64,000 nucleotides of DNA from Mortierella sp. BCC40632 (Eukaryota; Mortierellomycota; Mortierellomycetes; Mortierellales; Mortierellaceae), in assembly GCA_011634665.1 (NCBI GenBank), contig WAEK01000019.1, forward strand, positions 372,001 through 436,000. The letters run 5' to 3'. The position numbers and the translations under genes were made by a program. This document shows, piece by piece, positions 11,272 to 60,959 of the stretch (positions within the stretch are counted from its first letter, which is position 1; each line of letters starts with the position of its first letter). The notes below the pieces were generated by a model. That model made no database searches. It worked only from the letters and a program-made list of their open reading frames with translations, and was not told the origin of the DNA.

Positions 11272-11430
11272 TCTTTTTTTTTTCTAGCAACACAAAGACC
11301 CCATGTGGGCATGTAGAGTTTTTATTTTTTTTACCAATCTGTTTTTTCTTTTTTTTTTTTTTTTTTTTTTATGTTAACGAGGGCCCCACGTGGGCATGCA
11401 GAGTTTATGGAATACCAGGGCTACTGCTGG
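11272..11430 (-). mobile_element. Two stacked LINE 3'-end stubs
   Basis: A stub with CCCCATGTGGGCATGTAGAG (11291-11310) is followed by T-rich DNA and an ACCAATCTGTTTT piece. A second stub follows, with a T run to about 11370, then AACGAGGGCCCCACGTGGGC and the GCAGAGTTTATGGAATACC block to about 11428. The latter matches the 3' UTR of full-length LINE-A (11671 onward) almost exactly over about 55 bp. Both are extreme 5' truncations on minus. Confidence 0.65.
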
Positions 11431-11448
11431 CGGCTCCATGGCCCCAGA

Positions 11449-11637
11449 TTTTTTTATTTTTTTATTTTTTTATTTTTTATTTTTTTTTCACAATGACACC
11501 ACAATTTTGGGGTCTATGATTTATTACAAATGGGTTGCTCTTGAGAGTTAGGATTTTCCTATTTGTCCCAGAAATCTACGGTGGTTGTGTGTTGATATAT
11601 TCTCGCGTGCCCTTGCTGTAGGCCTTCCTTGGCCGTT
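11449..11637 (-). mobile_element. Short A-tailed insertion of unknown family, 18-bp target duplication
   Basis: CGGCTCCATGGCCCCAGA occurs at 11431-11448 and again at 11638-11655. The 189 bp between start (plus strand) with a repeated T7A pattern, i.e. an A-rich tail if read on minus. The body resembles neither the LINE-A nor the LINE-B 3' end. The target is the same one later used by full-length LINE-A, whose own duplication overlaps this one. Family unknown; it may be a SINE or another LINE's truncated 3' end. Confidence 0.6.
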
Positions 11638-11639
11638 CG

Positions 11640-11658
11640 GCTCCATGGCCCCAGAATC
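11640..11658. repeat. Target-site duplication of full-length LINE-A, 3' side
   Basis: GCTCCATGGCCCCAGAATC is present here and identically at 22241-22259. It directly abuts the LINE-A A tail (T run 11659-11670). The two 19-bp copies mark the limits of the element. Confidence 0.88.
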
Positions 11659-11880
11659 TTTTTTTTTTTTATAACGAGGGCCCCACGTGGGCATGCAGAG
11701 TTTATGGAATACCGGGGCTACTGCCCCGTTGTCACTTGGGCCATAACAGGTTCTAGCCCTGCAAATAAACACTAAATAGTTCTACCTAATGTCCAGATAC
11801 TCTGTTCGCCATCACCCACGTCGCATGAGTGGTCGTAATGCCAGCTCCCTACGCGGCCTGTTGCGCTCATTCGTCGTCTT

Positions 11881-13857
11881 TTAGCCCTCTTGGTCCATCG
11901 CTAACACTTTTTTCCAACTCCCTAGCCGCTCCATCACCTCCAGCTTTCTCTTTCCAAGGTAGTACTCATGCACAGTACGGTCTGCTTCATCGTATGCCTC
12001 CTTGAGGTTCGGCTTCTGCCTCAGCGGATTGTTCAAGTCGGAGAAATCTCCACAGCTACCTTGGTGTCCGTCAGCACCGTTGCGTCTCCCAGCGCGTTTG
12101 CTCACTGCAGAGATTCCTATCGACTTTTCCCAATTCACTGTGGTGTCACACCGTTGGCCCCAGATCTGCTTTCTACCATACTCCTCAATGTTCTCAATAA
12201 ACCGGCTGGCCATATACTTTGCCGTAGTCCCTGTCGTCCTGTGCATTATCTTCCATCTTAGCACCAACTCTTTTGGTACTAAGCCTTGGTATGCTTCCAT
12301 GATGGTGTGCATCGGTTGGTCGTCTTCCTCCTCGTTGTCCCTCTCCTCGTATTCCCTTGGCCGGATATTTGCCACACCCTGGAAAACATCCTCCAGCGAG
12401 GTCCCACAACTCCTCATCCCGTCTTTTTCTGTGAACCTCGGCTCCTTCTGCCTGAACTTCTTCTTTTCCTGCTGAGCCTTCTCCTTTCTTTCCTTCCACT
12501 CCCTTTTCTCCTTCAGCCACTGTCTACGTCCGCTGTCCTTCACTCTCGACACCATCTCCTTCCATCCTTCTTCCTGCGTCTGCCTCGTTGCTCTACATCT
12601 CCACACGTGCTCCATCGTTTCTGGTTCCTCCTCGCAGACTCTGCACGTATCCTCCTCATATAGATCTGGGTGGCGCTTCTTCATCTCAGTTAGAGTCGGC
12701 AGCATCCTATGCAGTTTCTTTATCCTGTGCGCTCTCTTACAGTCGCTTTCGCTGGTAAAAAATCCCCTTGGCGGGTTCCTGTTGTGGATAATGTCTAGAG
12801 TTGGACTCCATTCAATGGCTTTCCAGTCCCTGATGTACCTCTTGGTCCTGTTCTGTCTAAGCCAGTGTTGGTGTATCCTCGCCGCCGACTGAAGTTTGAG
12901 CAGCTGTCGCACGTCATCCTCTAGCGGATCTCCTAGGAATGTTGCTCTACAGCCGTACTCTTCCTGCATTCTGTCGGGCAGTTTCCACTCTTGTCTTTCT
13001 CCCCTATGCGCCCTGTTCGCTAACCGGTCCGCCGCCTCATTGCCACCCACACCCGAGTGACCTCTGACCCACTCAACTGTAACCCGCTCTCCCTGATTAC
13101 AGTATGCCCTGTGCACCTGCGTCCACCACTCCGCATACGTGGCTCTCTGCTTGATCCTGCAAGTGGCATCCACGCGACCCTCTACTAGCTTTTTAAAGCC
13201 TTTGACAACAGCCGTGTTGTCCAAGCGGACTATTGTCTCCTTCTCCCGTGGGCTGCATAGGATTGCTGCGAGGAGCCCGATCAGCTCTGCCTTCGTCGAC
13301 GACGCGTATCCACTCGTTGATCCTGAGATAATAGAATCGCAGCCATGCCCTCGCTCTGCCACCACTCCGAAAGTCATCTTTACACTGCCTTTGCCCATGT
13401 CTTTCATTGATCCATCAGAAAACAAAACAATGGTGTCCTCGTCCTTCAGTTGTTCTCTCCACCGTTTGACCTCCTCGATCGTTAGTCTGTTCAACTGCAC
13501 TCCCTCAAAGACTCCCTGTGGCTGTACTTCTGTAACTGCTTCTCGGAGTGGTATTGCTTCCCTCGCCATGGCTATTTCGGCTTCCCTCCTGATGGCGTTC
13601 CTTCTGTCTGTGTTGTCGATGTGCCTATTCAGCCATGGTCTCCTTCTTCTCCTTGCGGACTCCTTGGCGTACCTTGTTCGGAGCGTTCTTCGCAGTCTTA
13701 TCCGACTTCGGTACTCGTGCCTTCTCCGCCTTACAATTCGTCTTCTTTCTTTTTTCCTTTTTTCCTTCTCTTTTCTCTTTCTTTTTTCCTTCTTTTCTTC
13801 TCTTTTTCTCTTTCTTTTTTTCTTTTTTCCTCTTCTTTTTCTCTCTGCTTTTCCCAC
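11881..13857 (-). pseudogene. LINE-A ORF2, C-terminal part: RNase H and zinc knuckle
   Basis: This open segment encodes the 3' third of ORF2. An RNase H domain is visible: FSDGSMKDMG (first Asp), SSTKAELIGLLAA (Glu), VRLDNTAVVKG (second Asp) and VEWVRGHSGVGGNEAADRLA (His and last Asp). Further on comes CRVCEEEPETMEHVWRC, the CX2C-X8-H-X4-C knuckle typical of LINE C-termini. It ends KKVLAMDQEG. The N-terminal end overlaps the preceding ORF2 segment in another frame inside a Lys/Glu-rich, purine-only tract (13731-13857), so one frameshift separates them. All five catalytic acidic/His positions look present, so decay is recent. Confidence 0.88.
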
Positions 13858-16800
13858 TCTTTCTCAAGTGATTTTTCCAGCACTTCGAACTCATATTCCA
13901 GGTCTTCGCGCACAATCCACTTGTTCCCCCCTCTTCCGACCATTCTCTGTCTAACCCATGTATCTTTCCTCGTTTTCCTTTGGGCGTATGTCTCTTGCAT
14001 CCTCTTTGTGTCTGCCCTGTTCTGCATCGAGAACACTCTTCTCACTACCACTTCTTCTCTTTCTCTTTCCTCGTTTTCATTCTCGCTTTCTTCTTCACTC
14101 TCACTCACTTCTTCACTCTCTTCCTCTTCCTCAGTTGTGTATGAAGCGTCTGTCTCAATCGCTTCCAGACGCTCCTCTACTCTATTCTGCTGCTCCTCTG
14201 TCCACCTCCTTAACACCTCTCTCTCGGCTTCCTGTCCACACATCTGCCTCTGGATATTCTGGTACCATTTAGGCGGGAGCATCTTGCTGTCGTTGAAGCG
14301 TCTCCGGAACTCACTCCACGCGATCAGGTTTGTTTTCTCCTGGTCCATGATCTGCTCAGCGAAGAGTACTCCCCTTTTCCCTAGTTGGACTTTCATCTCT
14401 TCATCTAGTCCACCCCCCATCCATTCTTGGATGCTTACTGCTCCGTTACTGAGTCCAAGGTCGGGTCCAAGGTCCACTGCTAGGGTCATTCCTCAATCTG
14501 CAAGGATCTGACACACTCCACTTGTGATACTGTGTCTCTGGAGCTCCACAATGTCTGGCACCAGGGTAGGTACTGACGGCAACCTCTGTGCTTTCTGCAA
14601 CGCGAACAGTCGTGCACGGGCTGTTATTCCAACCAGTCCATTGTCTCCGAGTCGCAGCCATAGGCTTGATATTTGTTCCTCAGCCTGGACGTCCTCGAGC
14701 CTCCTGATTGCCCCCAGTCTTGTGTGGTGAACAATACTGTTGGGTGTCGTTTTAGCGAGCATGCTTTTGCTTTTGACGAGTGACACATACTTCCCTGTTA
14801 ACCTTTTTAAAACCGATTTGGGGAGGACTTGTACTGTCATCCTGTACAGCGCACGCGGTATCAGCACAGCGTTCACGATGTATGCTGTTTGTCTGTCTGT
14901 TACTTTCTTCCTTCTGATTGTCTTGCAGATTAGGTCGATGTCGTGTGCGATTAGGTCTTCAGTCGGTTTGGTGGATCCTTTTGCATTTACCCAAACTCCC
15001 AGTATCCGAGTTGCCTCTGCCTTCCCTATTGGCTTAATCAGCTCTTGGTCTGCCCCAAATACCAGATTTCTGTCTTGTACGCTGGGGTTGATTGTCAACA
15101 ACACTGTTTTTTTGGTGTTGATTTCGACCCCGTTGAGTTTAAAGAAATCCATTGCCGTGTCTAGAATCCTCTGTGCCCCTTCCTTTGTCCCCGCAATCCA
15201 GGTCGTGTCATCAACGAACGCCAAATCCGTTATCGGTGTTGGCCTTCCCCCATATTCCATCATGTATCCGTTGCCACTCTCCGCAATCTCACATAGCAGT
15301 GGGTCATATGCTATTCTCCACAATAAGGGGCACTCTACACCTCCTTGGTCCAGTCCGCACTCAGGGTGGTACTCCTCTGTGATGCCGTATTCCGTAATGA
15401 CTCTGTTGACCTTTGAGCATGCGATGTTACCACACAGTTCAGTGAAGTCTTCCGGCATTTTGATTCGTCTTAGCCCTCTGACTAGCATGCCGTCTGCACT
15501 GCAGTTCACCGAGTCGAAGCACCTTTTCATGTCCTGGAAGACCACCCACATCTCTTTTTTGTATTCCCGTGCGTCTTCCATTGCTGCATGAAGGATGTGA
15601 ATGGGATCTTTTGTGGTGGTTCCTTTTAGGACAGAGAAGTTGTGCCCTTTGAGAATATCGTGTCTCCTTAGGATTGTCCCTAATCGGTTCATGAGGATTG
15701 CGAACAATATTTTTCGGCCGTGTTCTAGCAGTGTAATTGGTCTTACCTCCGCCAGGCTACCGGACCACACTGGTGCCTTGGGGATGCAGTACAGGATTCC
15801 GGTTTTCCACTCCGTTGGCAGGTCCTTTTGGGCGATACATGCTGAGATAATTTGGAAGAGTATCCAGTCTCCAACTTGTCCTTGATGTTTGAAGAGGTCG
15901 TTTGTTGCACCCGATGAACCTGGCGCTTTTAGCTTGGGCGAGTCGCTAACAGCTGCCAAATATTCTTCCCAGCTTGGGGCGTCCATGAACCCGTTGTACC
16001 ACTCCTCTCTTATCCATTCTCGCGGCTTGTATTGTTTGTCCCATTGTGACCCTGGTTCAATTGGTTGTGCTGGTCGTGGTCCGTGCCATGCTTTGAACCA
16101 CTCTCGGACGTGAGCTTTGATCTCTCCTGGTTCCAAGATGGTTGTGATCAATCCGTCGCTGTTGGTTTGAACTCTGTCTAGCGTTACTTTGCCTTTGGTC
16201 CCGCTGAGAATGCTGTCGATTATTTTGCCTGCCGCCGTCTTCATTAACTCGTAGCGCTTCTCGATTGCGTCCTGAATAAATTTTCTAGTTCCTGTCTCCA
16301 CTTCAGTTTGGATCCGGCGCAAAATATCCTTCCACAATCTCTTCGTCTCGCTAATCCAGTCTATCCAAACGTTGTCCCCCTCCCCCCACAGTGGCACTTC
16401 ACCTGGTGGTGTTAGGTCGTCTTGCCTCTTTGCGTTGTGCTCTTCGACTTGTTCTAACGTTACCTTACGGTAGTGCCTTATCTCCTCCCAGTCTTCATTG
16501 GCGAAGGTTGGTCTTGGTTTCTTCCGGTATTCTGTAGCGATCTGCTTCAATTTCACCACTCCATGCAGAACGTGCTTTAGTGAAATTTCGTTTGCTGGTT
16601 TGACTCCCGAACGACCAACTATTCTTCCTGGTATCGATTCTTTAGCACTTCGTAAGATCACCTTCGAGTACCAGTTCCAAGCCGCGTTGAGGTCCACTTT
16701 CATAAGTTTCTCCTCTTCCACTGCCCCCTCAATCTGTTCTGGTAATTTTTCCAGTCCCATTTTTCCCCAAATCTCTTCTTTTTGTAGCGCCGTCTCGACC

Positions 16801-16898
16801 CTATCTTCGAATTCCTCCCAGTGCTCCTCCTTTGCGTCCCGGAATTGAAAGCGGTGCCCTGTAGAGATCACAAACAGGCCGCTGGGGAAATAGGATCA
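13731..16898 (-). pseudogene. LINE-A ORF2, reverse transcriptase part (one in-frame stop)
   Basis: Reading starts within about 16898-16871 (coding resumes near GLFVISTGHRF) and is open to a TGA at 14493-14495. It then continues in the same frame from 14489 to 13731. Reverse transcriptase motifs are clear: VFQDMKRCFDSVN (motif A), CGLDQGGVECPLLWRIAYD (motif B) and LAFVDDTTWIAG (motif C, FVDD in place of the common YADD). Downstream is thumb-like sequence and a Glu/Lys-rich linker. The upstream endonuclease is missing. The single stop plus the later frameshift make this a recent pseudogene; a TGA read-through or a sequence error cannot be excluded. Confidence 0.88.
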
Positions 16899-17728
16899 AA
16901 TGGGCTACGGTCAGTCTATCTTCTAACGATTCTACTTTCAACTCTCACATTAACGAAGGGGAAATACGTACAGGAAATGAGAATGGCCCTGTCTAAGAGT
17001 GATCTTAGGAGACTGGTACCAAATTGGAAGAAAATAACCGAGAGGGCTAACGAAATGAATTCTAAGTCGAAAGTAGGTAATTTTACACCGTGTGAATAAG
17101 CAGAAAAATGGGATTCAGACAAAGGAATTGGTGTCATAACTAAAGTACAAAGACGATGACCAACCTTTTGTCTAGATATCCTATTTTACAGAGATTTTCT
17201 AGAAAAGACAGTAGAAGGGTGGGGACCAAAGAAGATGATCGAGTTGCTATTCTGATGGGGTGGGGATGGCACAAATGGATACGAGTCAATTAAGCTGGCA
17301 CTGGTAGCTGTCCACACGAGGAATAAACAGCTCGATCAAGAAGAAAAAAAAAAGAAAAAGAAAGGGAAAGAAAGGATGGGATAGCAATGGCCAGAAGCCA
17401 TGCGGATGTCTCTTGATCCTCCTCGTGCGAGTCTTGGCTTCTTGATCCCACGATCGTTGAAGTATTCTTGCAATGGTCCAAGGAGGGGAGAAGGTCGATA
17501 AACGTCGCGTTGCAGACGGGTCGCCAGGAGCACTTCGATGGCATGGAACGAGCGGTCGGCAGCGCAAAGTCCATATGACTTAGGGTGGATGTCGCATGTC
17601 TGTCGTTGGGTAAGGGTCGCTCAACAAGGGGAGGGAGTAACTTACTCTTCAAAGACGGCAGGCAGACGAAATACAAAGAAGGGGCATCCCCGAGCAAGGA
17701 AGCTTGCTCGGTGTCTTTTATTTCACTA

Positions 17729-19356
17729 CAGTGGGCGCCAAAATGGTTTCAATAATTCTCAAATTTTCATATTTTAGCAATTTTCTACCCATCGAGAATA
17801 TGTAAATGCACCTTGTTGCTTAGATTGAAAACAATACCCAGAATGCCTTGTTCACGACAGTGTAAACAGATTTTCAATATGTTGTCAGAAAGGCGTGCTA
17901 TGAGGTAAATTGTTGAAGCTAGATATTGGAACCATTTCGCCACTTGGGCACGCCATTTATATTTATTGCTATTTCATCTCTTTTTTCACAATCGTTTGTC
18001 TTATATCTACAGTCAGTCAGAGAGATTAAAAGAAGATGAATAGATCTTGACAAGTTTGATATAAAATACGGGTGCAATCGCTCGAAAATGGTCGATATTC
18101 CTCCATCATGAAAAAAACGAAAGAAGACACTCAAAACTCTATCATAAGCCAGCTAAAAAAAGCAGGCTACTCCGTCAAGAATGTCGCTAGACGATTATCA
18201 GTCAGCCCTGCTTCTGTTTCAAGGATCCGAACCAAGCATTTACCTACTCTACAAAGGCAACCAACAGGAAGACCAAGAATTCTCTCGGCTCGCTCCAAGA
18301 ATGATCTCAACAGAAAGTTACTTTCCGGCATGTTGAAGACTAGCAAGCAGGTCCACAAGAGCCTCAATGGTGAAGGGACAGTTATCTCGTACAGATCAGT
18401 CCTTCGCAACCTCAGGGAGATCGGCTTTCAAGCGAAAAAAAAGTCAAAAAGCCTTTCCTTAGTAAGCGACACAAGCAAGCGCGGTTGGAGTGGGCAAGAG
18501 GTCATAAAAATTGGACCATCGATGACTGGAAGCGAGTGGTATTCTCAGATGAAACAAAGATAAACATCTGGAACTCGGACGGGATACAATATTACTGGGC
18601 TAAGCCAGGCGATCCGGTTCAACCATTTCATCTTCAACCTACTGTCAAGCATGGAGGTGGATCCTTGATGTTCTGGGGCTGTATGACGTCCAAGGGACTT
18701 GGCTATGGCTGTCAGATCTATGAAGGAACTATGAAAAAGGAGGATTACATCAATATTCTCGACACAACATTGAAAGAAAGTCTCGAGTATTATGATCTCG
18801 GAAAAAATGACTTCATTTTTCAGCACGACAACGACCCCAAACACAAAGCCAAAGCAACAACCAAGTACCTGGAGGATCAGGATATTGAGGTTCTTCGATG
18901 GCCTGCACAATCAGCAGATTTAAATCCAATCGAGCATGTTTGGGACAAGCTGAAGGTTCAGATTGGTCAACGAGAGAAGCGGCCTACGAGTGTTCATGAA
19001 TTGTGGGATATGGTGCTGGAGGAATGGGAGCTGATACCACAGGATATGATTGACAAGCTCTATGAGTCGATGCCACGAAGAGTAGAGGCCGTGTTGAAAG
19101 CGAAAGGGGGGAATACGAGGTATTGAAGAATTTTCCCGGACTAGTGGCAAAATGGTTTCTATGAGACGACAACATTGGAGGCGGCATAGCTCGCTCATGT
19201 GAAGTGATAAAGGCCCGCTTTCTTATTTCTCGGGTCCACCATTGATAAGACTTTCCTTTCTATTAGAATTGAATATGAAAGAGAAAGAAAGAATAAACGA
19301 GAAAATTAGAAAAAGCGAAATTTCTGAAAACATTGAAACCATTTTGGCGCCAACTG
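17729..19356 (+). mobile_element. Tc1-family DNA transposon, complete with TIRs and TA duplication
   Basis: The element is 1628 bp, flanked by TA at 17727-17728 and 19357-19358. The terminal inverted repeats start CAGTGGGCGCC (left) and, read inward from the right, CAGTTGGCGCC. Both continue with AAAATGGTTTCAAT before diverging. Size, CAGT terminus and TA target are typical of Tc1. It sits inside the gypsy gag relic, so it is the youngest layer of this nest. The encoded transposase is listed separately. Confidence 0.93.
18108..19126 (+). pseudogene. Tc1-type DD34E transposase, two frames joined at an A8 run
   Basis: The transposase catalyses cut-and-paste transposition. The N-terminal frame (ATG at 18108) has a helix-turn-helix: SVKNVARRLSVSPASVSRI. 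The second frame, open by 18485 and reaching a TGA at 19124-19126, has the catalytic triad VVFSDETKINIW (Asp), FQHDNDPKHKA (Asp) and SADLNPIEHVWDK (Glu), with 34 residues between the last two. Together the two give about 339 residues, normal for Tc1. The frames meet at A8-G (18435-18443). A -1 slip on A-AAA-AAG leads directly into a segment (KKPFLSKRHKQARLEWA) that is conserved at this place in the family. It may be a one-base deletion in a homopolymer or a programmed frameshift. Confidence 0.85.
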
Positions 19357-19366
19357 TATCTTCCGA

Positions 19367-19877
19367 TATCGTAGTTGCTACATGACACCGTCTCCTCGTC
19401 GAGTTTGGGGATCAGACGTTTATAGCGTCGGAACTCGTTGCTGTAGGCTGCGACAGACATCTTCCCTTGGCGGATAGTTGAGATCTTCCTTCGGGCTGCG
19501 TGAACGGCGTCAGGCGGGGTGAACCGGGACACGAACGCCGTACGGAAGTCGACCCAGTCCGTGGATAGGGTGAGGCCGGATGTTCTCCACCAAGAGCGGG
19601 CGTCCTCAGTGAGGGCCAGGACGATGTAAGGTACCCAATGAGAAGGGTCCAGTTGGACAATGGTGTAGTATTCCTCATAGCTGTCGAGGAAATTGAGGCA
19701 GCCTTCAGCATCGATGGTACCCTTGTAGGGTTCTGGCTTTTGGGGCTTCAGGACGGTAGCTAGGGTGCGGGCTAGGTCTTGTCGTGCCGCCTGTGCCGCT
19801 AGAGTGTCGGCGGCAGAAAGGCCACCGGCAGGGGCGCCAGCGGTAGAAGGGGTTTGGGTCGGTGCAGGGTCATTCAT
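19367..19877 (-). pseudogene. Ty3/gypsy gag fragment, interrupted by Tc1
   Basis: The reading frame opens MNDPAPTQTPSTAGAPAG and encodes about 170 residues of a capsid-type domain. Recognisable pieces are DAEGCLNFLDSYEEYY, TEDARSWWRTSG, DFRTAFVSRFTPPDA and IRQGKMSVAAYSNEFRRY, the usual retrotransposon-gag pattern. The frame ends at the Tc1 border, and the sequence beyond Tc1 does not continue gag: joined across the TA it meets stops at once. The gag was therefore already broken before Tc1 arrived. No protease, reverse transcriptase or integrase remains. Confidence 0.8.
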
Positions 19878-20059
19878 GGTGATCGTCGGGGGGGGGGGGC
19901 AAGGGGGCAGGGAAAAAAACAGGGCCAAAAATTGTTAACAGGGATGAGCGTAATCAAGGTCGGGGGATTGAAAATTCCTTTGCTGCCATGCAACAGCAAG
20001 AGTCGTAGAAAGAGCTGTTGTTTATTAGAGGGTGGTGAGAGGTATTTATATACTGCTGC

Positions 20060-20175
20060 ACCCATTCACATAGGGCGTCCATTTTTCCGGGCTTATTGGC
20101 GCCCCTGATGTTGAACGACCCTACTCTTAACTCTTTTTCCATTTCTCGTCCCATACCATTATTTTCTTTCTGCAT
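20060..20175 (-). pseudogene. LINE-A ORF2 start, first residues of the endonuclease
   Basis: ORF2 begins at an ATG at 20175, 17 nt upstream of the end of the ORF1 stop codon (TAA 20161-20159), in a different frame. It encodes LRVGSFNIRGANKPGK, the first strand of an APE-type endonuclease with its conserved N-x-R-G, then DALCEWVQQY. The reading passes into LTR-like sequence at about 20060. The remainder of the endonuclease is absent until coding resumes at about 16898. Confidence 0.8.
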
Positions 20176-22132
20176 TTAAAAAAAGATTTTCGTTTGTCTT
20201 TCCTTGTGTTTTCGCTCCACTTTGTGCTGGGGCACTTTCTCCCATCTTTGCTATTTCATCCGCTCTTTTTTTCGCATCAACCGCGATCGTCGCTATCCCT
20301 GCCAACGCTTCATTAAAAACGTCCCTGTTGTAGGGGGGTAAGTTTCCCATGGTAGTGCGCCTCTTTTTGTGTACCAACTTGTCCACGTCGTCCAGTTTTC
20401 CTGGTCCACTCTTGTTCTTTTCCTTTTCTTTTGTTTCCTCTTTTTCCTCTCCCATAGTGTTTCCCTGAAACATGTTCATAATGATGGTCATAAGGAGCTT
20501 ATTCTGTTCCTGAATAGCTTTTAGTGATTCGCTCAAGGACTGAACTGTCTGCGTGAGATGCTTCACTTGCTCCTCCATTCCCTTGTCATGTTTAGTGGTC
20601 AATTTTGCCGTTGAATTGGCTCCCCCAATTACTGGAAAGTTTTCCTCGTTGATTTCTACATGCTTTGCCACACTTTGTCTTCGTGTTGCTTGATAAGCGT
20701 TCTCAGGCTTGGGGTTTCCTGTCGTGGCTGCAGCAAACGATTTCCCTCTCTGCACTGGGTTGAATGTCCCTTTTCTGAACGCTTGCACCTCCTTGATGTG
20801 CATCCTGTTGATTATCCATTGTTTTTGGACCTCACACTTTCCTATTTCGTGCTCTTTGCCTTTGCATGCATAGCACAGTTTGTCCTGCAGCCCACACCAG
20901 GCCAACCTTTTCCCTCTAAATTCCATTCCTGTCTCCATTGCTTTCTTCATGTCTTCCTGTGTACGGAAGTAAACGAACGCCTCACGTCTGTAACGGAAGT
21001 GATTGCTCTTACCTAGATAAAACCGGGGTACTTCGATGAAGTCCGCTTGAACGTTTTCCATTAGATCTTTCAGGTCTAACGAGGATGTTCCGACTGGGAG
21101 TCCAGAAAGCTTGCAGGCAAAGTTGATATTCCAGCTGGCCAGTTCGCCTCCGATTTTTCCGATGCGAACCAAGTCTCTTCCTACGGCAACATACTGAGCA
21201 TTGTTTTTCTTGATCTCTCCAATTGTCTCCAGATCTTCAAATATGATCACCGCCTTCATTTTTCTCCCGTTGGTCACCGCCACGACCTTAAAACTTTGGA
21301 TCGGTCCTAGTTTGTTGGCAGCCATCTCAACAAATTTGTCGGGCACTGTTGGTGCGATGCCGTAGAGCTCTAGCGTTCTAGCCACTTCTGCCGCCCTGAG
21401 TGCTTCGTTGTCGACCACTGAAAATATATGGATCCTGTCGTCTTCGCCTGTGATTGCTCTTTCTTCCGGATCATCATTCTCCATTTCCTCGTCGACGTCC
21501 TGTCCGTCTCTGTCGATCTCCTCGATCGCCTTTTTGCTTGCCGTCATTGCCAATAACTTCCCAGCATCTTCTTTTGTTTCCACTACAATCTGGAAATGCT
21601 CTCGCCCTTGGAAAGTCATTTTCTTGGGTACCCTCACCAGATTCACTCTCTGTCCCAGCATTATTCTCTCCAGCTCCTTCTTTTTTTCCGCCATAGTACT
21701 GCCGACTACCCATGCAATTGGGATCTTCAACGCCAACTTCCCTTCTCCATGGGATTTAATGGTGAGCCATTGCTGCTCTTCTTCGTCACCTTCAGGCACA
21801 TTCTCATCCCCACCCTCCTCCGTGTCATCGACATCCATCTTTGCCTCGGCCTGTTTTGTAGCATTTTTTGCTGCTGCTGAGTACACGTACCCATGGACTA
21901 CATCGTAGTGGTCCACAATGACCGCAGCTCCTTCCTTAATCTCCTTCATTTTTTCCGCCGTCGTTCTAGCCCTCTCCTCTTCCATGTCGGGTTGGTTGCC
22001 TCCATTCTGGGCTCGATTTCCGTTCGGTCCGTTTCTTTTTTTCAGCAGATTCTGTTCATCTGCAAAATCTTCGCCATCAGACCGATGATGGACCAGATTT
22101 TTAGTTGTCCCGTGACCCTGGCCTTGGGACAT
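20159..22132 (-). CDS. LINE-A ORF1 protein (nucleic-acid-binding, intact)
   Basis: This 657-residue ORF1 product is expected to coat the element RNA and form the retrotransposition particle. It is uninterrupted, unlike ORF2. After an acidic N-terminus there are RRM-like segments (MKAVIIFEDLETIGEI and REAFVYFRTQEDMKKAM), then a zinc knuckle, CYACKGKEHEIGKCEV (CX2CX4HX4C), near residues 420-435. A coiled-coil-like stretch follows (LTQTVQSLSESLKAIQEQN) and a Lys/Glu-rich tail. ORF1 with an RRM plus CCHC knuckle is usual for Tad/I-group LINEs. Its start MSQGQGHGTT is the first ATG after the 108-nt leader. The 3' end overlaps the ORF2 start. Confidence 0.85.
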   Translation of the reverse strand: MSQGQGHGTTKNLVHHRSDGEDFADEQNLLKKRNGPNGNRAQNGGNQPDMEEERARTTAEKMKEIKEGAAVIVDHYDVVHGYVYSAAAKNATKQAEAKMDVDDTEEGGDENVPEGDEEEQQWLTIKSHGEGKLALKIPIAWVVGSTMAEKKKELERIMLGQRVNLVRVPKKMTFQGREHFQIVVETKEDAGKLLAMTASKKAIEEIDRDGQDVDEEMENDDPEERAITGEDDRIHIFSVVDNEALRAAEVARTLELYGIAPTVPDKFVEMAANKLGPIQSFKVVAVTNGRKMKAVIIFEDLETIGEIKKNNAQYVAVGRDLVRIGKIGGELASWNINFACKLSGLPVGTSSLDLKDLMENVQADFIEVPRFYLGKSNHFRYRREAFVYFRTQEDMKKAMETGMEFRGKRLAWCGLQDKLCYACKGKEHEIGKCEVQKQWIINRMHIKEVQAFRKGTFNPVQRGKSFAAATTGNPKPENAYQATRRQSVAKHVEINEENFPVIGGANSTAKLTTKHDKGMEEQVKHLTQTVQSLSESLKAIQEQNKLLMTIIMNMFQGNTMGEEKEETKEKEKNKSGPGKLDDVDKLVHKKRRTTMGNLPPYNRDVFNEALAGIATIAVDAKKRADEIAKMGESAPAQSGAKTQGKTNENLFLNAERK

Positions 22133-22240
22133 GTCGCTTCGCGATCGGGTTTGGTGTTGGTGAGTGTGTGTAGGGGTAGTTCTGTGGGGATTGTGAAGTT
22201 TATGCCCTGATCGCGGTAGATGGGAAAGGTGCCTTCCCCA

Positions 22241-22259
22241 GCTCCATGGCCCCAGAATC
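22241..22259. repeat. Target-site duplication of full-length LINE-A, 5' side
   Basis: This is the second copy of GCTCCATGGCCCCAGAATC (first at 11640-11658). Its last three bases also begin the 18-bp duplication of the next insertion (22257-22274), so two LINE-A elements entered 15 bp apart. Confidence 0.88.
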
Positions 22260-22274
22260 AGGGAATTTGAAGAA

Positions 22275-23560
22275 TTTTTTTTTTTTTTTTTTTTTTTTTA
22301 TAACGAGGGCCCCACGTGGGCATGCAGAGTTTATGGAATACCGGGGCTACTGCCCCGTTGTCACTTGGGCCATAACAGGTTCTAGCCCTGCAAATAAACA
22401 CTAAATAGTTCTACCTAATGTCCAGATACTCTGTTCGCCATCACCCACGTCGCATGAGTGGTCGTAATGCCAGCTCCCTACGCGGCCTGTTGCGCTCATT
22501 CGTCGTCTTTTAGCCCTCTTGGTCCATCGCTAACACTTTTTTCCAACTCCCTAGCCGCTCCATCACCTCCAGCTTTCTCTTTCCAAGGTAGTACTCATGC
22601 ACAGTACGGTCTGCTTCATCGTATGCCTCCTTGAGGTTCGGCTTCTGCCTCAGCGGATTGTTCAAGTCGGAGAAATCTCCACAGCTACCTTGGTGTCCGT
22701 CAGCACCGTTGCGTCTCCCAGCGCGTTTGCTCACTGCAGAGATTCCTATCGACTTTTCCCAATTCACTGTGGTGTCACACCGTTGGCCCCAGATCTGCTT
22801 TCTACCATACTCCTCAATGTTCTCAATAAACTTTTTTTTTTTTTTTTTTTATATAACAATCTGTTTCCGCTGGATTTTTTTTTTTTTTTTTTTTTTTATA
22901 ACAATCTGTTTCCGCTGGAATAGCCGTGCAGGCAAAACTAAACTAAGAAAACCTAATCTAGCCCCGGCCACCGCTTTGCGGTGGCAACCCTCCATCAACC
23001 ATAACAGCTCACGTGGCTGTTGCCCCGAGCAACGATTGCCGTCTCTCTCGAGACGTTTAAATAGTTGAGAAAAAGACCGTTACCGGAAAGGTATCCTCCC
23101 CATCCTTTCCAACACCCCCAAATGTCGCCGTCCTGCTAGACTATCGAGCAGGGAGGTATCAGCCGACGCTGCGTCGTTCTGTGCTCCTGGGCATCGTTGC
23201 TCCTGGTGATCAACAAGAAGGGATCCGCACTGGCAGGCGTCAGCAGGGCATGCAAACCCATAGCCATCGCTCCAGCGTCCTCTCGCTCCTTGGGAAGGGC
23301 CTTTCTTCTTCCCCGGGGTGATTCCATGTCTTGTCTCCCATGCCACCGTTGTCTCACAGCGTTCTTTCCATAAGACTTCAGTTGACTGCGACTCGATGTA
23401 GCTGACAAAACAGTGGGCCACCCGAGCTGCCACTGATTCTGTTACCGCAAATAGTCTCTTCCATGCCGCAGTTAGAGCTGTCGGTGTCAGCCCTCGACAG
23501 AGATCAATGTTCTCAATAAACCGGCTGGCCATAAACTTTGCCGTAGTCCCTGTCGTCCTG
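22275..23560 (-). mobile_element. LINE-A, 5'-truncated second copy, split by a LINE-B insertion
   Basis: ATCAGGGAATTTGAAGAA at 22257-22274 and 23561-23578 is an 18-bp target duplication. Inside, a T run (22275-22299) is the A tail, and 22300-22831 is nearly identical to the 3' end of full-length LINE-A (from 11671). After the nested LINE-B (22832-23503) and its duplicated target, 23522-23560 continues the same LINE-A sequence to a point equal to about 12241 of the full copy, where it is truncated. The near identity with the full copy, including the C-terminal coding region ending KKVLAMDQEG, indicates recent activity of one subfamily. Confidence 0.9.
22832..23503 (-). mobile_element. LINE-B, 5'-truncated, nested in LINE-A, with doubled 3' end
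   Basis: TCAATGTTCTCAATAAAC occurs at 22814-22831 and 23504-23521, an 18-bp target duplication within LINE-A. The insert begins with a T run, a short ATAACAATCTGTTTCCGCTGG piece, a second T run and the same 3' end again, continuing to GAATAGCCGTGCAGGC. Thus the tail and last bases are duplicated. The minus-strand reading (to 23080) encodes a LINE C-terminus: KERCETTVAWETRHGIT, RWSDGYGFACPADACQCGS and LLDSLAGRRHLGVLERMG. ERCETTVAWE parallels QRCDTTVNWE of LINE-A, showing that LINE-B is a related but distinct family. Confidence 0.85.
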
Positions 23561-23686
23561 ATCAGGGAATTTGAAGAAGCCTTTTAAAAAAAAACACCTT
23601 TTGAGTAAATTCAGCGGAAGATCTCGTAATAAAAGGGCACCGGGAAATTCCGGTGCATCGAGCTTGGTTCCCCGGTTACCGGCTTG

Positions 23687-23760
23687 GCTTCTGTGGCGCA
23701 ATTGGTTAGCGCGTCTGACTGTTAATCAGGAGGTTGGTGGTTCAAGCCCACCCAGGAGCG
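23687..23760 (+). tRNA. tRNA-Asn (anticodon GUU)
   Basis: A 7-bp acceptor stem forms between GCTTCTG and CAGGAGC with one T-G pair. The D arm is TGGCGCAATTGGTTAGCGC, the anticodon arm CTGACTGTTAATCAG with GTT, and the T arm GGTGG-TTCAAGC-CCACC. A G discriminator base is at 23760. No intron. A T6 terminator follows near 23772. Internal A and B boxes are canonical. LINE-A insertions end 108 bp upstream, and a family C tail begins 95 bp downstream. Confidence 0.95.
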
Positions 23761-23855
23761 GATCCCATCATCTTTTTTGCTGTTTTTTCAGCCAACCCAG
23801 GTATACTTTTTTCATTCTCCGATCTTGAGTCTCCATCATCGCCTCCTCCTCCCCC

Positions 23856-23990
23856 TTTTTTTTTTTTTTTTTTATGGGCCCCGTTAGGGGTTTTATTCGT
23901 CGGCGCGCACTCATACCACGGTCTGCGGACGTGGCCAGCTAGTTCACAAAAACTACACTATCCTACAACAGAAGAGTAGAGAGAAGAAGG
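23856..23990 (-). mobile_element. Family C repeat, 3' end with A tail
   Basis: An 18-nt T run (23856-23873) is followed by GGGCCCCGTTAGGGG, which contains a small hairpin (CCCCGTTAGGGG), then TTTTATTCGTCGGCGCGCAC. Related blocks occur at 60362, 61018 and 61366. Farther on, GAAGAAGGAAAAGGTGGAGGG resembles the matching part of the 61018 copy. On minus this is an A-tailed 3' end. The upper limit is uncertain and no coding capacity was seen. Confidence 0.6.
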
Positions 23991-25066
23991 AAAAGGTGGA
24001 GGGTGACCTCCCCCTTCTCTTTCTCCTGGTGCAAGGCGCGTGTTTTGTTCTGCATTGGAGAAAGAGGACCACTTTTTTTCTTTTCTTTTTGTTGTTGTTG
24101 ATAGTGAGCTTTTTCCCATGGATCCAGAATGGTGCAGGGTGACAATGTTTATCACAGATCTGGTTCTAGATAGGCTGGGAGGATCGAGAGCAATAAGCAA
24201 TAAGGCGAGTGAAGAAGAGAGAAGAAGCCTCCAATGGTTCAATCCCCAGGAGAGATGATTGAAACGCGGGTTGGAGCGAGATATGGTCCCCAACCGACAT
24301 TGACATCACGCGCCTTGCTGGGATTCAGGAAGGCTCGCGATCTTACTGGGCCGTATCAGGACAGTAGGGAAAATGAGAGAGAAGAGAAGAGAGAGAAAGA
24401 AAACACTCCAACCACTAACACTACCACCGCCACTACCACCACCACTAAAAGGTACCTGTGTTGAAATGTTGCATCACGGGTAACCTTGCATGTACTCTCA
24501 CCCCTCTCCCCTCTCTCTCGGCATTCAGAAGAGACATGATTGTATGTCCCCATTCTGGGACACTTGAATGAAATGACGATGTAGCACACCGAGGTAGGCA
24601 GTCGCGACAATAAGGAGAGATGGGAAGAGAGGAGGAGGAGGAAGAAGAAGAAGAGAAGGAGGAAGAGGAGGAGAATACAACGGCTCACTGATGTCAGTCC
24701 GTGGGTTGGGTTTGGTTGAATAAGACGGTGTTTTTTTTTTTTTTTGTGCATCTCTCCTTCTATTCCATCATTCTCCACCGCTCTTTCTCTCTTTTTCTTT
24801 CTTCCTCTCTTTCTCTTTATCCCGTCTCTCCGTCTCTCGCTCTCTCTCTCTTTTTCTCTCTCTTCTGTCCTCGCCTCCAACTGAGCTTTGTCATCCTTAG
24901 TTGCCCATCTCCGCCACCCCATCACATTCCTGCATCTTGTCCTTCTTCTCTTCCTCTCTCTCTTTCTTTCTTTCTCTCTCTCTTCACGCGCATCTCTCCT
25001 TCACACCTTTCTTTCTTTCTTCCCTTCACTTTCTCACACACACTCTCTCTCTCCCATTCTTGGATC
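23991..25066. promoter_or_regulatory. Upstream region of the oxysterol-binding protein gene
   Basis: About 1.1 kb without a supported gene. It has GGTTCAATCCCC (24235-24246), a perfect B-box-like string but with no A box or cloverleaf. It also has an ACC-repeat patch near 24420-24448, and a long CT-rich stretch (24760-25050) that is probably the promoter/5' UTR of the following gene. Confidence 0.4.
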
Positions 25067-38518: not shown

Positions 38519-39526
38519 AGCAGAGAGAGGAGTCCAATAAAAAAATAAAAAAAAAATACAAGGCCGAGAGTGTCACAATAGTATAGCGTCCATAACACAC
38601 AGTACCATAGCGCACTAACAATGACAATAACAATAGCTATAGGACAACAGCAATATCAAAAAAGAAGAGAGGTATAAAAGGAGAGAAAGAGTCTTTGCAA
38701 TCCATAGCGAAGTTTGCAAAGAATTCTGACCCCTCTCTCTTTAGTTCTTTCTATTGTTTTCCCTTGCCTTTCTCCCGTGCGACTTCAAAACTTTCTTAGT
38801 TGCAACTTGTAGCCAACCTCCCAAATGACCTTTGTCGTTTGTTGTTGTCGGAGAACCCATGTTGGAGTGAAGGAGTGAGAAAGTGAATGAGAGAGTGAGC
38901 GAGGGAGTGAGGGAAAGAGGGCTTTAAAGAGGAAGGGAAGGAAGGCTTTTGATGAGGGAAGGGGGGATGGGAAAGGAAAATGAGAAGGGAGAGAGAGTCC
39001 CTCACAGTCTCGTCCCTCAATCTCCTGTGTCCTACCCAAGTCTTCCCCACCTTTGTAGAGCAATGGGCTTAATCTCAGCAGCTCATAGCAACAAGGCTAC
39101 TCGACTGCCAATGCCCTGTTCAATTTAAGTCGTCTGCAATGGATTTATCTCTTCCAATATTTGAAATTAAATTAGCAGGTGCCCCACAGTGCCTTTCCGC
39201 ACTGCAAGGCCTCCCCATGGGAGTGTATTCGTGTTCAACTAGATACCGGAAAAGGCGGTAATCGTCGCCGTCCAGCTTGGATTCTGACTTGGAGGCGTTC
39301 AGCCATAATCAAACGGACGATAGCTTCGGGTCATTGCCTGCTCAAGCAGACCCAAACACCAATTATCCGAATGAAGTGTTCCTCTCGTACGTACTAACTT
39401 CAGTTACTATTGCAAAAACACTTCATCAGTAGGGTAAAACTAACCTGTCTCACGACCGTCTTAACCCAGCTCACGTTCCCTATAAGTGGGTGAACAATCC
39501 AACGCTTACTGAATTCTGCTTCAGCG

Positions 39527-39561
<35 letters not shown>

Positions 39562-41220
39562 AACGTCGCTATGAGCGCTTCGCTGCCACAAGCCAGTCTA
39601 GTTAGAGATGTGCGGGTTCGGGCAAAAATATTCTTGCAAGACAAAAAAATTTCATAGACACGAGACAAGATGCAAGCTGTGGGTAGCATGGTTTATAGTC
39701 GACTCAATCGGAGAAACAATCGGGGGGAGGGAAGGGGAGGAATGTGCTATCTCATGCTATTTTTTTTTTTTTTTTTTTTTGCCTTAGGTAGCACACAGTC
39801 CAGCCCTAAGGAAGATGAATAATCTTTTTGGTTTTACCTATTGGCGAGTCATGGCCAACTTTGTGGTTGCTTGCCAACGACAGAGAACATCCAAATCCCA
39901 AATTCATGGCTTTTCCTAAACATCCACTATGTTACTTGCTTTCTCAAAAAGACAGACTAGTCGTAAACATGTCTAGCCTTAGTTTATACTGGACGACAAA
40001 AAGAACCAGTGTTTATTCGCGAGGGAGGAAAATCTGGAGAGGCCAGTTGATATTTTTCTAAAAACGAAGCCGTCTAGCCATGGGTAGATAACGATAAAAG
40101 TGTCATTTACTATTTTTTTTGGCCAACACTCCCGTCCCTATCTGTTATCCAGCTGTACGAAAAAGGAGGTGTCATCCACTTTTTCATCATGGCTGGGCGC
40201 CAAAGGAGTACTGAAAAGGTCACAACATGCTGTGCACGATACTTGTTGGCGGATAAAATGTAAACAAGATGACTAGCGCCCATTTTTTTTTTCGAATCCT
40301 CGAATGCAATGCTTGAACAGACGCAGGTGGAAGGACCAGTTAAATGGAGTCGCTCTTACTGAGTCGTACTGCGAGAGGATTGACCTGCAGATTTTTTTTT
40401 TTTTTAGCAGCAACAAGCAATTTTCCCGTCCTCCATACAACTCACCAAAGAACCAGTCGACAAGTCCTAGAAAGCGATGACCAGATGCAAAAAAAAAAAA
40501 AAAAAGGTATCCTTGTCATGTAAAACAATCCAGGGACCTGATAGGAAGGGGAGGAGATGGGAGATAGACAACACTCCAGCAAATCAACATGAGAATTTTA
40601 AAAGCTAGTCCCCCAGAAATCGGGGAATGAGAGTCCTCGACATTTTTGGCCCGTGCAAGAAAAAAAAAATATAATAAAATAAAGGTGAAGGTTATGATGC
40701 TGGTTACCGAGAAGAGATGGATGCGCGGTCATTACCAGGCAGAACCGTCAGTCTTATCTTATGAAGAGATAATTTATCCTTTTGGAGAGAGAAAAAAGTT
40801 TTTTTTTTTGTTCTTGTGGCCCACGGCACTTTGGCACAAAAGATGCGATCGCAGACGAGCAGGCAAAAAAAAAAAAAAAAAAAAAAGATGAGAAAAATGG
40901 ATGGTTGCACAAGGAGGACAGACGATGACTGGGTTTGTTTTGTGCACACAAAGTTTCTTCAGAAAGAGTGAGAGCGGGCTGCGTCGCATTCATACCATAT
41001 TTTCCTTTCCTTTTTTCTTTCCGTCCATTCGTTGGTGCTGTACAACCAGGCACACATTTCATATGGGCGACCTTGGCTGATGCTCTAATTGCCGGCTCAC
41101 GCTGGAACAACCGTGGAGCGACCAGTCTTGTGTCGGGCCGGGAGAAGTGATATCCTTGGAATCTGTCTTCTCTACTCCTATCGCTGCTGTCAGTCCTCTT
41201 TGCGAACAAGAGGGTGGTGA

Positions 41221-59834: not shown

Positions 59835-59971
59835 AGATTGAATATGACCTTTTTTATAACAATCTGTTTCTGCTGGAAATAGCTATGTAGGCTAAGACTA
59901 AACTAAACTAGCCACAGTCACCGCTCTGCGGTGGCAGTCCTCCATAATACCATAAAGATTGAATATGACCT
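59835..59971 (-). mobile_element. LINE-B, 105-bp truncated copy with 16-bp target duplication
   Basis: AGATTGAATATGACCT is found at 59835-59850 and 59956-59971. The 105 bp between start with a short T run and the LINE-B 3' signature (ATAACAATCTGTTTCTGCTGG) and stop in the CTGCGGTGGCAGTCCTCC block, so only the last about 100 bp of the element were copied. Its 5' side faces the tRNA-Phe gene 161 bp downstream. Confidence 0.88.
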
Positions 59972-60132: not shown

Positions 60133-60139
60133 GCGGCTT

Positions 60140-60180
<41 letters not shown>

Positions 60181-60205
60181 GTGTGTTCAATCCACACAAG
60201 CCGCA
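60133..60205 (+). tRNA. tRNA-Phe (anticodon GAA)
   Basis: The acceptor stem GCGGCTT/AAGCCGC is seven perfect pairs. The D arm is AGCTCAGTTGGGAGAGC, the anticodon arm CAGACTGAAGATCTG with GAA, and the T arm TGTGTTCAATCCACA. An A discriminator base is at 60205. No intron. T runs (60213-60217 and 60230-60236) can terminate Pol III. A LINE-B insertion lies 161 bp upstream and a family C tail starts 142 bp downstream. Confidence 0.96.
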
Positions 60206-60265: not shown

Positions 60266-60959
60266 CCACGGAGTTAGTACGGGAGATGTTACACCAAATT
60301 AGTGCAGAGGTCTTTTGGGAGATTTTTTACACGGAGCTAGTACGACATTTTTTTTTTTTTTGATTGGCCTCGTGAGAAGTTTTATTCGTCGGCGCGCGTC
60401 TGTCCATGCTCTGCAAAGGACATGGCCTCCGCTGCCTCTTTTTGAAAGAAAAAAAAACTATCTAAACATAAAGGGGAAATGGAGGGGGACGACCCAGAAA
60501 CGATATAGGTGGAAATAAAAATACAAAGCAGATGGGAGAAATCAAGACAAGGCACAAAGGTGAGCTATCAGAGGGGGCAGGTCAAGGGCAGTTCTACAGC
60601 TAGGGCAGGGGGTCCGAGGGGTCCGAAAGCGGCAGAAGTGGTTCCCAGTTAAGTTTTTTTTCGGGGGATGTGTCTAACTACAGTCTGTACTGCCTTTAGC
60701 TAACCGCAGTACAGGGCATAAATTGATTCCAAGTATTATCCATACAGTTTTTTTTATAGTTTCAATCGATAGAGGAAGCTGCTTTGTTTAGGTCAAGAAA
60801 ATTTTGGGACTTGAGGCCCCAGGTTAGGGCCTGTGGAAACCAAAAGGTTCTTCACGCACTAACTCCGTGTAATTTTTTTTTTAAAAAAAAAATCTAGTGT
60901 TATCCCTGTATAAAATCTCTGCACCACCTGGTGTGAATTTTCCAGTACTAACTCCGTGG
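60266..60959. mobile_element. Inverted-repeat element (MITE-like) split by a family C copy
   Basis: The left arm 60266-60342 starts CCACGGAGTTAGTAC and ends near ACACGGAGCTAGTACG. The right arm 60855-60959 is its imperfect reverse complement (CGCACTAACTCCGTG inward, GTACTAACTCCGTGG at the end). The arms are about 77 and 105 bp; the right one is longer because of a T9A10 block. Each arm is itself bordered by a CACGGAG-YTAGTRC motif. There is no coding sequence. A family C copy (from 60348) lies between the arms. Flanking target duplications were not identified. Confidence 0.6.
60348..60655 (-). mobile_element. Family C repeat, copy downstream of tRNA-Phe
   Basis: A T14 run (60348-60361) is followed by GAAGTTTTATTCGTCGGCGC, GGACATGGCCTCCGC, CTATCTAA and AGGTGAGCTATCAGAGGGGG, and it ends in a GTCCGAAAGCGGCAGAAGTG block. 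The order of blocks matches the copies at 61018 and 61366. A-tailed on minus; no coding capacity recognised. Confidence 0.6.

Follow-up and report, generated by a model that had tools for sequence, protein, structure and literature searches.

The window analysed here is a 64-kb stretch of the fungus Mortierella sp. BCC40632 (contig C19, positions 372001-436000; genome 49.9 Mb on 62 contigs, the one genome of this survey). Its tRNA-Asn gene carries a stack of upstream insertions belonging to two families of long interspersed nuclear elements (LINEs), LINE-A and LINE-B, and to a 189-bp element, and a copy of another family, family C, lies downstream. The tRNA-Phe gene of the same window has the same layout, with a LINE upstream and family C downstream. 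Throughout, C1, C4 and similar labels before a colon denote contigs, "family C" denotes the element and L-numbers denote loci. The features are given below in window coordinates.

11375-11427, minus strand: LINE-A 3' stub just beyond the stack, 98% match to the LINE-A 3' end
11431-11448, plus strand: left copy of the 18-bp target duplication flanking the 189-bp element, CGGCTCCATGGCCCCAGA; second copy at 11638-11655
11449-11637, minus strand (antisense to the tRNA): 189-bp element with a T-rich left end
11659-22240, minus strand: large LINE-A with the 19-bp duplication GCTCCATGGCCCCAGAATC at 11640-11658 and 22241-22259
About 16868-20049, no strand assigned: secondary insertion in the large LINE-A, borders set by eye, with Pfam Retrotrans_gag and DDE_3
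22275-23560, minus strand: truncated LINE-A, 108 bp upstream of tRNA-Asn, with the 18-bp duplication ATCAGGGAATTTGAAGAA at 22257-22274 and 23561-23578
22832-23503, minus strand: LINE-B nested in the truncated LINE-A, with an 18-bp duplication at 22814-22831 and 23504-23521
23687-23760, plus strand: tRNA-Asn(GTT), found by ARAGORN and Rfam (68.1 bits); reference point for distances
23856-24009, minus strand (antisense): family C end, poly-T followed by C, the poly-T starting 95 bp past tRNA-Asn
59850-59955, minus strand: truncated LINE-B, 162 bp upstream of tRNA-Phe, with the 15-bp exact duplication AGATTGAATATGACC
60133-60205, plus strand: tRNA-Phe(GAA), the second tRNA gene of the window, found by ARAGORN and Rfam
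60348-60653, minus strand (antisense): copy of family C, about 142 bp past tRNA-Phe

Every piece of the stack is antisense to tRNA-Asn. The target duplications, which were read directly, overlap and thereby place the entry points on the restored flank at 126 bp (189-bp element), 123 bp (large LINE-A) and 108 bp (truncated LINE-A) upstream of the tRNA gene, within 18 bp. This reading bears out a first-pass annotation of the window, which had proposed three antisense insertions with duplications of 18, 19 and 18 bp at these distances, the first two in overlapping targets, as well as a LINE-A stub just beyond them and an A-tailed family C end 95 bp past the tRNA gene. The nested LINE-B is a fourth event at tRNA-Asn, about 165 bp upstream, and a weaker LINE-A match lies, like the stub, farther out. 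Window positions 22832-22898, at the nested LINE-B, hold two poly-T runs and a repeated 3' end motif, perhaps the trace of two LINE-B insertions or of a template switch. The family C reference matches at 23874-24009, and copies related to the 189-bp element occur in L012, L022, L039, L054, L062 and L068.

Matches to the LINE-A, LINE-B and family C references fall at 10.7-24.0 kb (the tRNA-Asn stack) and at 59.9-61.6 kb (around tRNA-Phe), and at E 1e-3 the 64-kb window contains no further match. One B-like match (13248-13316) lies inside LINE-A. A plasmid search with the tRNA region as query returned no match.

LINE-A and LINE-B upstream of tRNA genes

The list of tRNA genes was compiled with the Rfam tRNA model and without regard to repeats. 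It holds 63 genes, ranked by score, and is incomplete; there were 1589 first-look candidates. Flanks of 330 bp were taken on each side of all 63 genes, with the downstream side partly missing for five, and only matches of at least 40 bp were counted. On this basis LINE-A or LINE-B lies antisense within the upstream flank of 19 of the 63 genes; neither occurs there in sense orientation, and neither occurs downstream. The edges facing the tRNA gene lie at 75, 109, 111, 111, 115, 121, 122, 126, 136, 144, 147, 153, 153, 154, 164, 177, 208, 229 and 234 bp, that is, 15 of the 19 at 109-177 bp and the nearest at 75 bp. Matches shorter than 40 bp add, among others, a sense LINE-B upstream (20 bp), a LINE-B downstream (22 bp) and a sense family C upstream. 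In 20 random windows of 330 bases, placed at positions drawn from 24 contigs (together 90% of the genome), we found neither A, B nor C, and their 360 bases contain no tRNA gene.

The first-pass annotation had asked whether insertions of these families are enriched within about 200 bp of tRNA or other RNA polymerase III genes. Run on the readable part of the genome, the comparison gave the 19 of 63 upstream flanks and, for family C, 16 of 40 copies (see below). The association of A, B and C with tRNA genes, specific in position and orientation, is well supported, and it is very probable that LINE-A, LINE-B and family C undergo targeted integration at a restricted distance from these genes. The analysis directly shows where the insertions lie and how they are oriented, their duplications, their return at many tRNA isotypes and the lack of them in the control regions.

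A pattern of this kind would also arise if a few blocks of tRNA gene plus LINE had been duplicated instead of repeatedly invaded, and some flanks are indeed near-identical (C5:7883 and C10:2110001, 100%; C4:311365 and C4:321755, 97%). However, once near-identical upstream flanks are removed, 17 of 56 still carry LINE-A or LINE-B, and isotypes, truncation points and duplications all vary, which leaves block duplication extremely improbable.

Viewed from the elements, the same arrangement returns. We used the best 40 of 102 candidates for the LINE-A 3' end, of 94 for LINE-B and of 143 for family C (47, 46 and 42 rows, respectively, the last equal to 40 copies). At the 60 A/B loci, ARAGORN found 21 distinct tRNA genes, 18 of them on the 5' side of the LINE and in opposite orientation. 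The other three comprise one on the 5' side in sense and two on the 3' side, and one of the latter, the tRNA-Thr of L056, has the LINE-A 5' end of another copy 150 bp upstream. At five of 13 LINE-A 5' ends a tRNA gene lies in the expected arrangement at 111-150 bp (C6:1687008, C4:1946587, C19:474644, C1:594304 and the window copy at its restored 123 bp). By coordinates alone, a listed tRNA gene is found no more than 500 bp from 0 of 47 LINE-A and 1 of 46 LINE-B 3' ends, as expected if the body of the element lies between. An Rfam scan of 40 loci (39 without an ARAGORN tRNA) for missed genes transcribed by RNA polymerase III (Pol III) yielded a large subunit (LSU) rRNA fragment in L037, the known tRNA of L056 and a cut-off tRNA on the expected side in L063. 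Fragments of the LSU rRNA 3' end were seen at 39049-39597 of the window and at 453-821 of L037, a locus that contains a diverged copy of LINE-A. At L042 (about 2301) and L063 (about 2908), LINE-B copies of unequal length share the same end point within similar tRNA-bearing flanks.

Where duplications could be resolved near the gene, the entry points lie at 108, 123 and 126 bp (Asn), 162 bp (Phe), 108 bp (Lys), 119-120 bp (Ser) and about 130 bp (Gly). No unambiguous entry point could be given for Arg (123) or Ala (140), where LINE-A contains the matching sequence too. The duplications of L014 and L038 are ambiguous, their match being to LINE-A itself, and the search for duplications gave nothing convincing in L024, L025, L026, L041, L042, L046, L053, L057 and L062; all these loci were left out of the resolved set. 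These data bear on the idea that the endonuclease recognizes a DNA motif which happens to occur near tRNA genes. AP-type (apurinic/apyrimidinic) endonucleases do have some sequence preference. However, no shared motif is obvious by eye among duplications of different loci, including those at Asn, Lys, Phe, Ser and Gly, and at tRNA-Asn a LINE-B entered LINE-A sequence about 165 bp from the gene; we regard the motif explanation as very unlikely. With differing target sequences and many isotypes in use, the elements seem to choose by position and not by sequence.

Family C and further families

Family C occupies the other side of the tRNA gene. Of its 40 scored copies, 16 are found downstream of a tRNA gene at a distance of no more than 350 bp, in antisense orientation and with the poly(A) end toward it; these are 13 of the 37 copies whose flanks were examined plus those of the window, L024 and L042. 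Twelve of the 13 lie at 57-146 bp and one at 179 bp, and all 13 are antisense. The probability of 13 in 37 is 2e-20, even when all 1589 first-look candidates are counted as tRNA genes. From the tRNA side, 11 of the 63 genes have family C antisense downstream, and the division of A/B versus C between upstream and downstream is significant (Fisher p 6e-8). A mariner family served as a comparison: of its 40 copies, none has a listed tRNA gene closer than 5 kb and one has such a gene closer than 10 kb. For family C the figures are 10 and 13 of 40, with 12 of those 13 downstream and antisense.

The sidedness matters for another explanation, in which insertion is random and selection keeps LINEs only beside tRNA genes, where harm is small. 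Extracts of PMC5006619 describe tRNA flanks as safe sites in gene-dense genomes, in line with this idea. Selection does not readily explain the 19:0 orientation bias, the restriction of A/B to the upstream and mostly of C to the downstream side, or the overlapping target duplications, and we consider it a very improbable substitute for targeted integration.

Copies of family C show a poly(A) end and 5' truncation. Reading on from the L060 copy revealed no reverse transcriptase, and one piece had no Pfam match. All-against-all matching of the C flanks mostly returned the common C end. Eleven of the 40 copies lie within 450 bp of a terminus of one of two further families, D and E, and in four cases (C4:301756, C4:1936680, C3:678968 and C17:864050) the D or E element has a known tRNA gene at its far end. 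This is expected if family C inserted first and D or E then entered between, and would raise the tRNA-linked copies to 20 of 40.

D has inverted termini of about 160 bp that enclose an element of 7.5-7.7 kb (eight pairs) or a short form of 0.72-0.74 kb (six pairs), with one further pair at 14.6 kb. The termini of E measure about 230 bp, and 10 inverted pairs at 9.3-9.4 kb were found among 19 neighbouring pairs. Four known tRNA genes have an E terminus 56-133 bp downstream, and a further E terminus follows a D end, at 209 bp; two of these E termini also lie 266 and 321 bp upstream of the partner gene in a divergent tRNA pair, and six C copies sit directly outside an E terminus. U is a 106-bp repeat with 27 matches, most of them 98-100% identical; at six known tRNA genes its end lies 11-15 bp upstream. 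From their inverted termini alone, D and E look like DNA transposons, and U is perhaps the end of a long terminal repeat (LTR).

C5:7669-7828, C7:161313-161472, C12:640429-640587 and C2:2365070-2365228: D termini, each following a listed tRNA gene at 50-74 bp
C4:301907-311272, C4:1936836-1946268 and C11:271010-280336: E, terminus 92-133 bp downstream of a tRNA gene
C4:342688-342794, C10:591041-591146 and C1:3745275-3745380: U at Lys, Met, Asn and Ala tRNA genes

We consider it somewhat probable that unrelated mobile families have partitioned the tRNA flanks, with a separate window for each (A/B, the LINE-like C, D/E and U). If so, non-LTR elements and DNA transposons would have reached tRNA gene targeting independently in one fungal genome.

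Several observations weigh against targeting as a complete account. For LINE-A, eight of the 13 5' ends have no tRNA gene seen within 350 bp (two of these, C9:2045916 and C26:151438, were viewed only inside L017 and L044), and in L031 the element lies downstream of a tRNA gene in sense. Some resolved A/B duplications lie farther out, at 286 bp (Asp) and 480 bp (Ser, L068), or at 722, 773 and 1057 bp with more LINE pieces between, and for four loci with a duplication (L016, L017, L018 and L035) the 0.8-1.5 kb or so that was viewed contains no tRNA gene. For family C, 24 of 37 flanks contain no tRNA gene within 350 bp, and 20 of 37 stay without one after the four were traced through a D or E element. 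Among the 63 tRNA genes one has a C copy antisense upstream and one in sense downstream, and L011 holds a sense C copy upstream of a tRNA gene. Finally, 5S genes, which are also transcribed by Pol III, were considered as further targets and rejected: within 300 bp of nine genes, six of them with closely similar flanks, there is no A, B or C.

Element structure and relation to known systems

The large LINE-A encodes Pfam RVT_1 (E 7e-18) and RNase_H domains, with RRM_1 in its first open reading frame (ORF1), where the CCHC knuckle CYACKGKEHEIGKC is also readable. Its secondary insertion consists of a Ty3-gag fragment and a Tc1/mariner element (about 18060-19160). Of the endonuclease only the start is left, about 26 residues when judged by eye and readable from about 20050, and the endonuclease of a relative gives no match to this copy. 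The first-pass annotation had called it full-length; with its endonuclease reduced to the first residues and followed by Ty3-gag and Tc1/mariner sequence, the copy is not. The closest relative, P0001, has an AP-type endonuclease (Exo_endo_phos, E 2e-7). Named relatives of the LINE-A reverse transcriptase come from Mortierella, Podila, Linnemannia, Entrophospora and Geosiphon, and these mobile-element proteins point to a probable host among the Mortierellaceae. Among solved structures, R2 and LINE-1 proteins are nearest in sequence. With a reverse transcriptase domain, a poly(A) end, 5' truncation and variable target duplications, LINE-A is a non-LTR element, and its reverse transcriptase, RNase H, ORF1 knuckle and, in the relative, AP endonuclease fit a Tad-like architecture. 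LINE-B has an RNase H in L052, 35% identical to the corresponding part of LINE-A.

Extracts of PMC5911963 and PMC5006619, on which the following comparisons draw, place tRNA-targeting non-LTR elements in dictyostelids and, for fungal tRNA genes, name LTR elements only. TRE5-A of Dictyostelium discoideum, of the L1 clade, is likewise a non-LTR element that enters upstream in opposite orientation to the tRNA (PMC5911963), as LINE-A/B do in 19 of 19 cases. However, TRE5 inserts at 40-54 bp and LINE-A/B mostly at 109-177 bp; moreover, TRE5-A ORF2 ends in a zinc finger whereas LINE-A has an RNase H, and the host here is a fungus. TRE3 of Dictyostelium uses a window of 40-150 bp downstream, similar to the 57-179 bp of family C, but it has the same orientation as the tRNA whereas family C is antisense in 13 of 13 cases (PMC5911963). 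The likeness to TRE5 and TRE3 put forward in the first-pass annotation thus fits as behaviour; as the distance fails for TRE5 and the orientation for TRE3, the system is a member of neither. The dictyostelid NLTR-A and NLTR-B likewise have an RNase H after the reverse transcriptase and lie upstream of tRNA genes (PMC5911963, PMC5006619), at 2-6 and 39-64 bp, unlike LINE-A/B, a comparison made by description. Ty1, Ty3, Tj1 and other fungal LTR elements share fungal hosts and the targeting of Pol III or tRNA genes (PMC5911963), but these use an integrase and not target-primed reverse transcription. Zorro3 of Candida albicans, as described in extracts of PMC7175516, is a fungal non-LTR element with a target preference, for poly(A) tracts and not tRNA genes. 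Among the papers listed in searches of the open-licence literature, with most subscription papers outside the search, we found no fungal non-LTR element at tRNA genes.

The likeliest mechanism would be tethering to Pol III factors. LINE-A/B would integrate by target-primed reverse transcription, mostly about 109-177 bp upstream and reading away from the tRNA gene, and family C would enter on the downstream side at about 57-179 bp, in antisense orientation and with its 3' end toward the gene. Pol III factors on the tRNA gene may anchor the integration complex, perhaps through ORF1, after which the endonuclease would nick the tRNA coding strand with little sequence demand; judging from the orientations, the first nick would fall on this strand for A, B and C alike if all are target-primed. 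The use of one window again and again would then build nested stacks.

In the extracts cited, LINE targeting of tRNA genes has so far been described in social amoebae, and the present case lies in a fungus. A fungal system with upstream and downstream families suggests convergent evolution and provides a second system for asking how a LINE finds Pol III genes. Its nested stacks may allow insertions at one site to be ordered in time.

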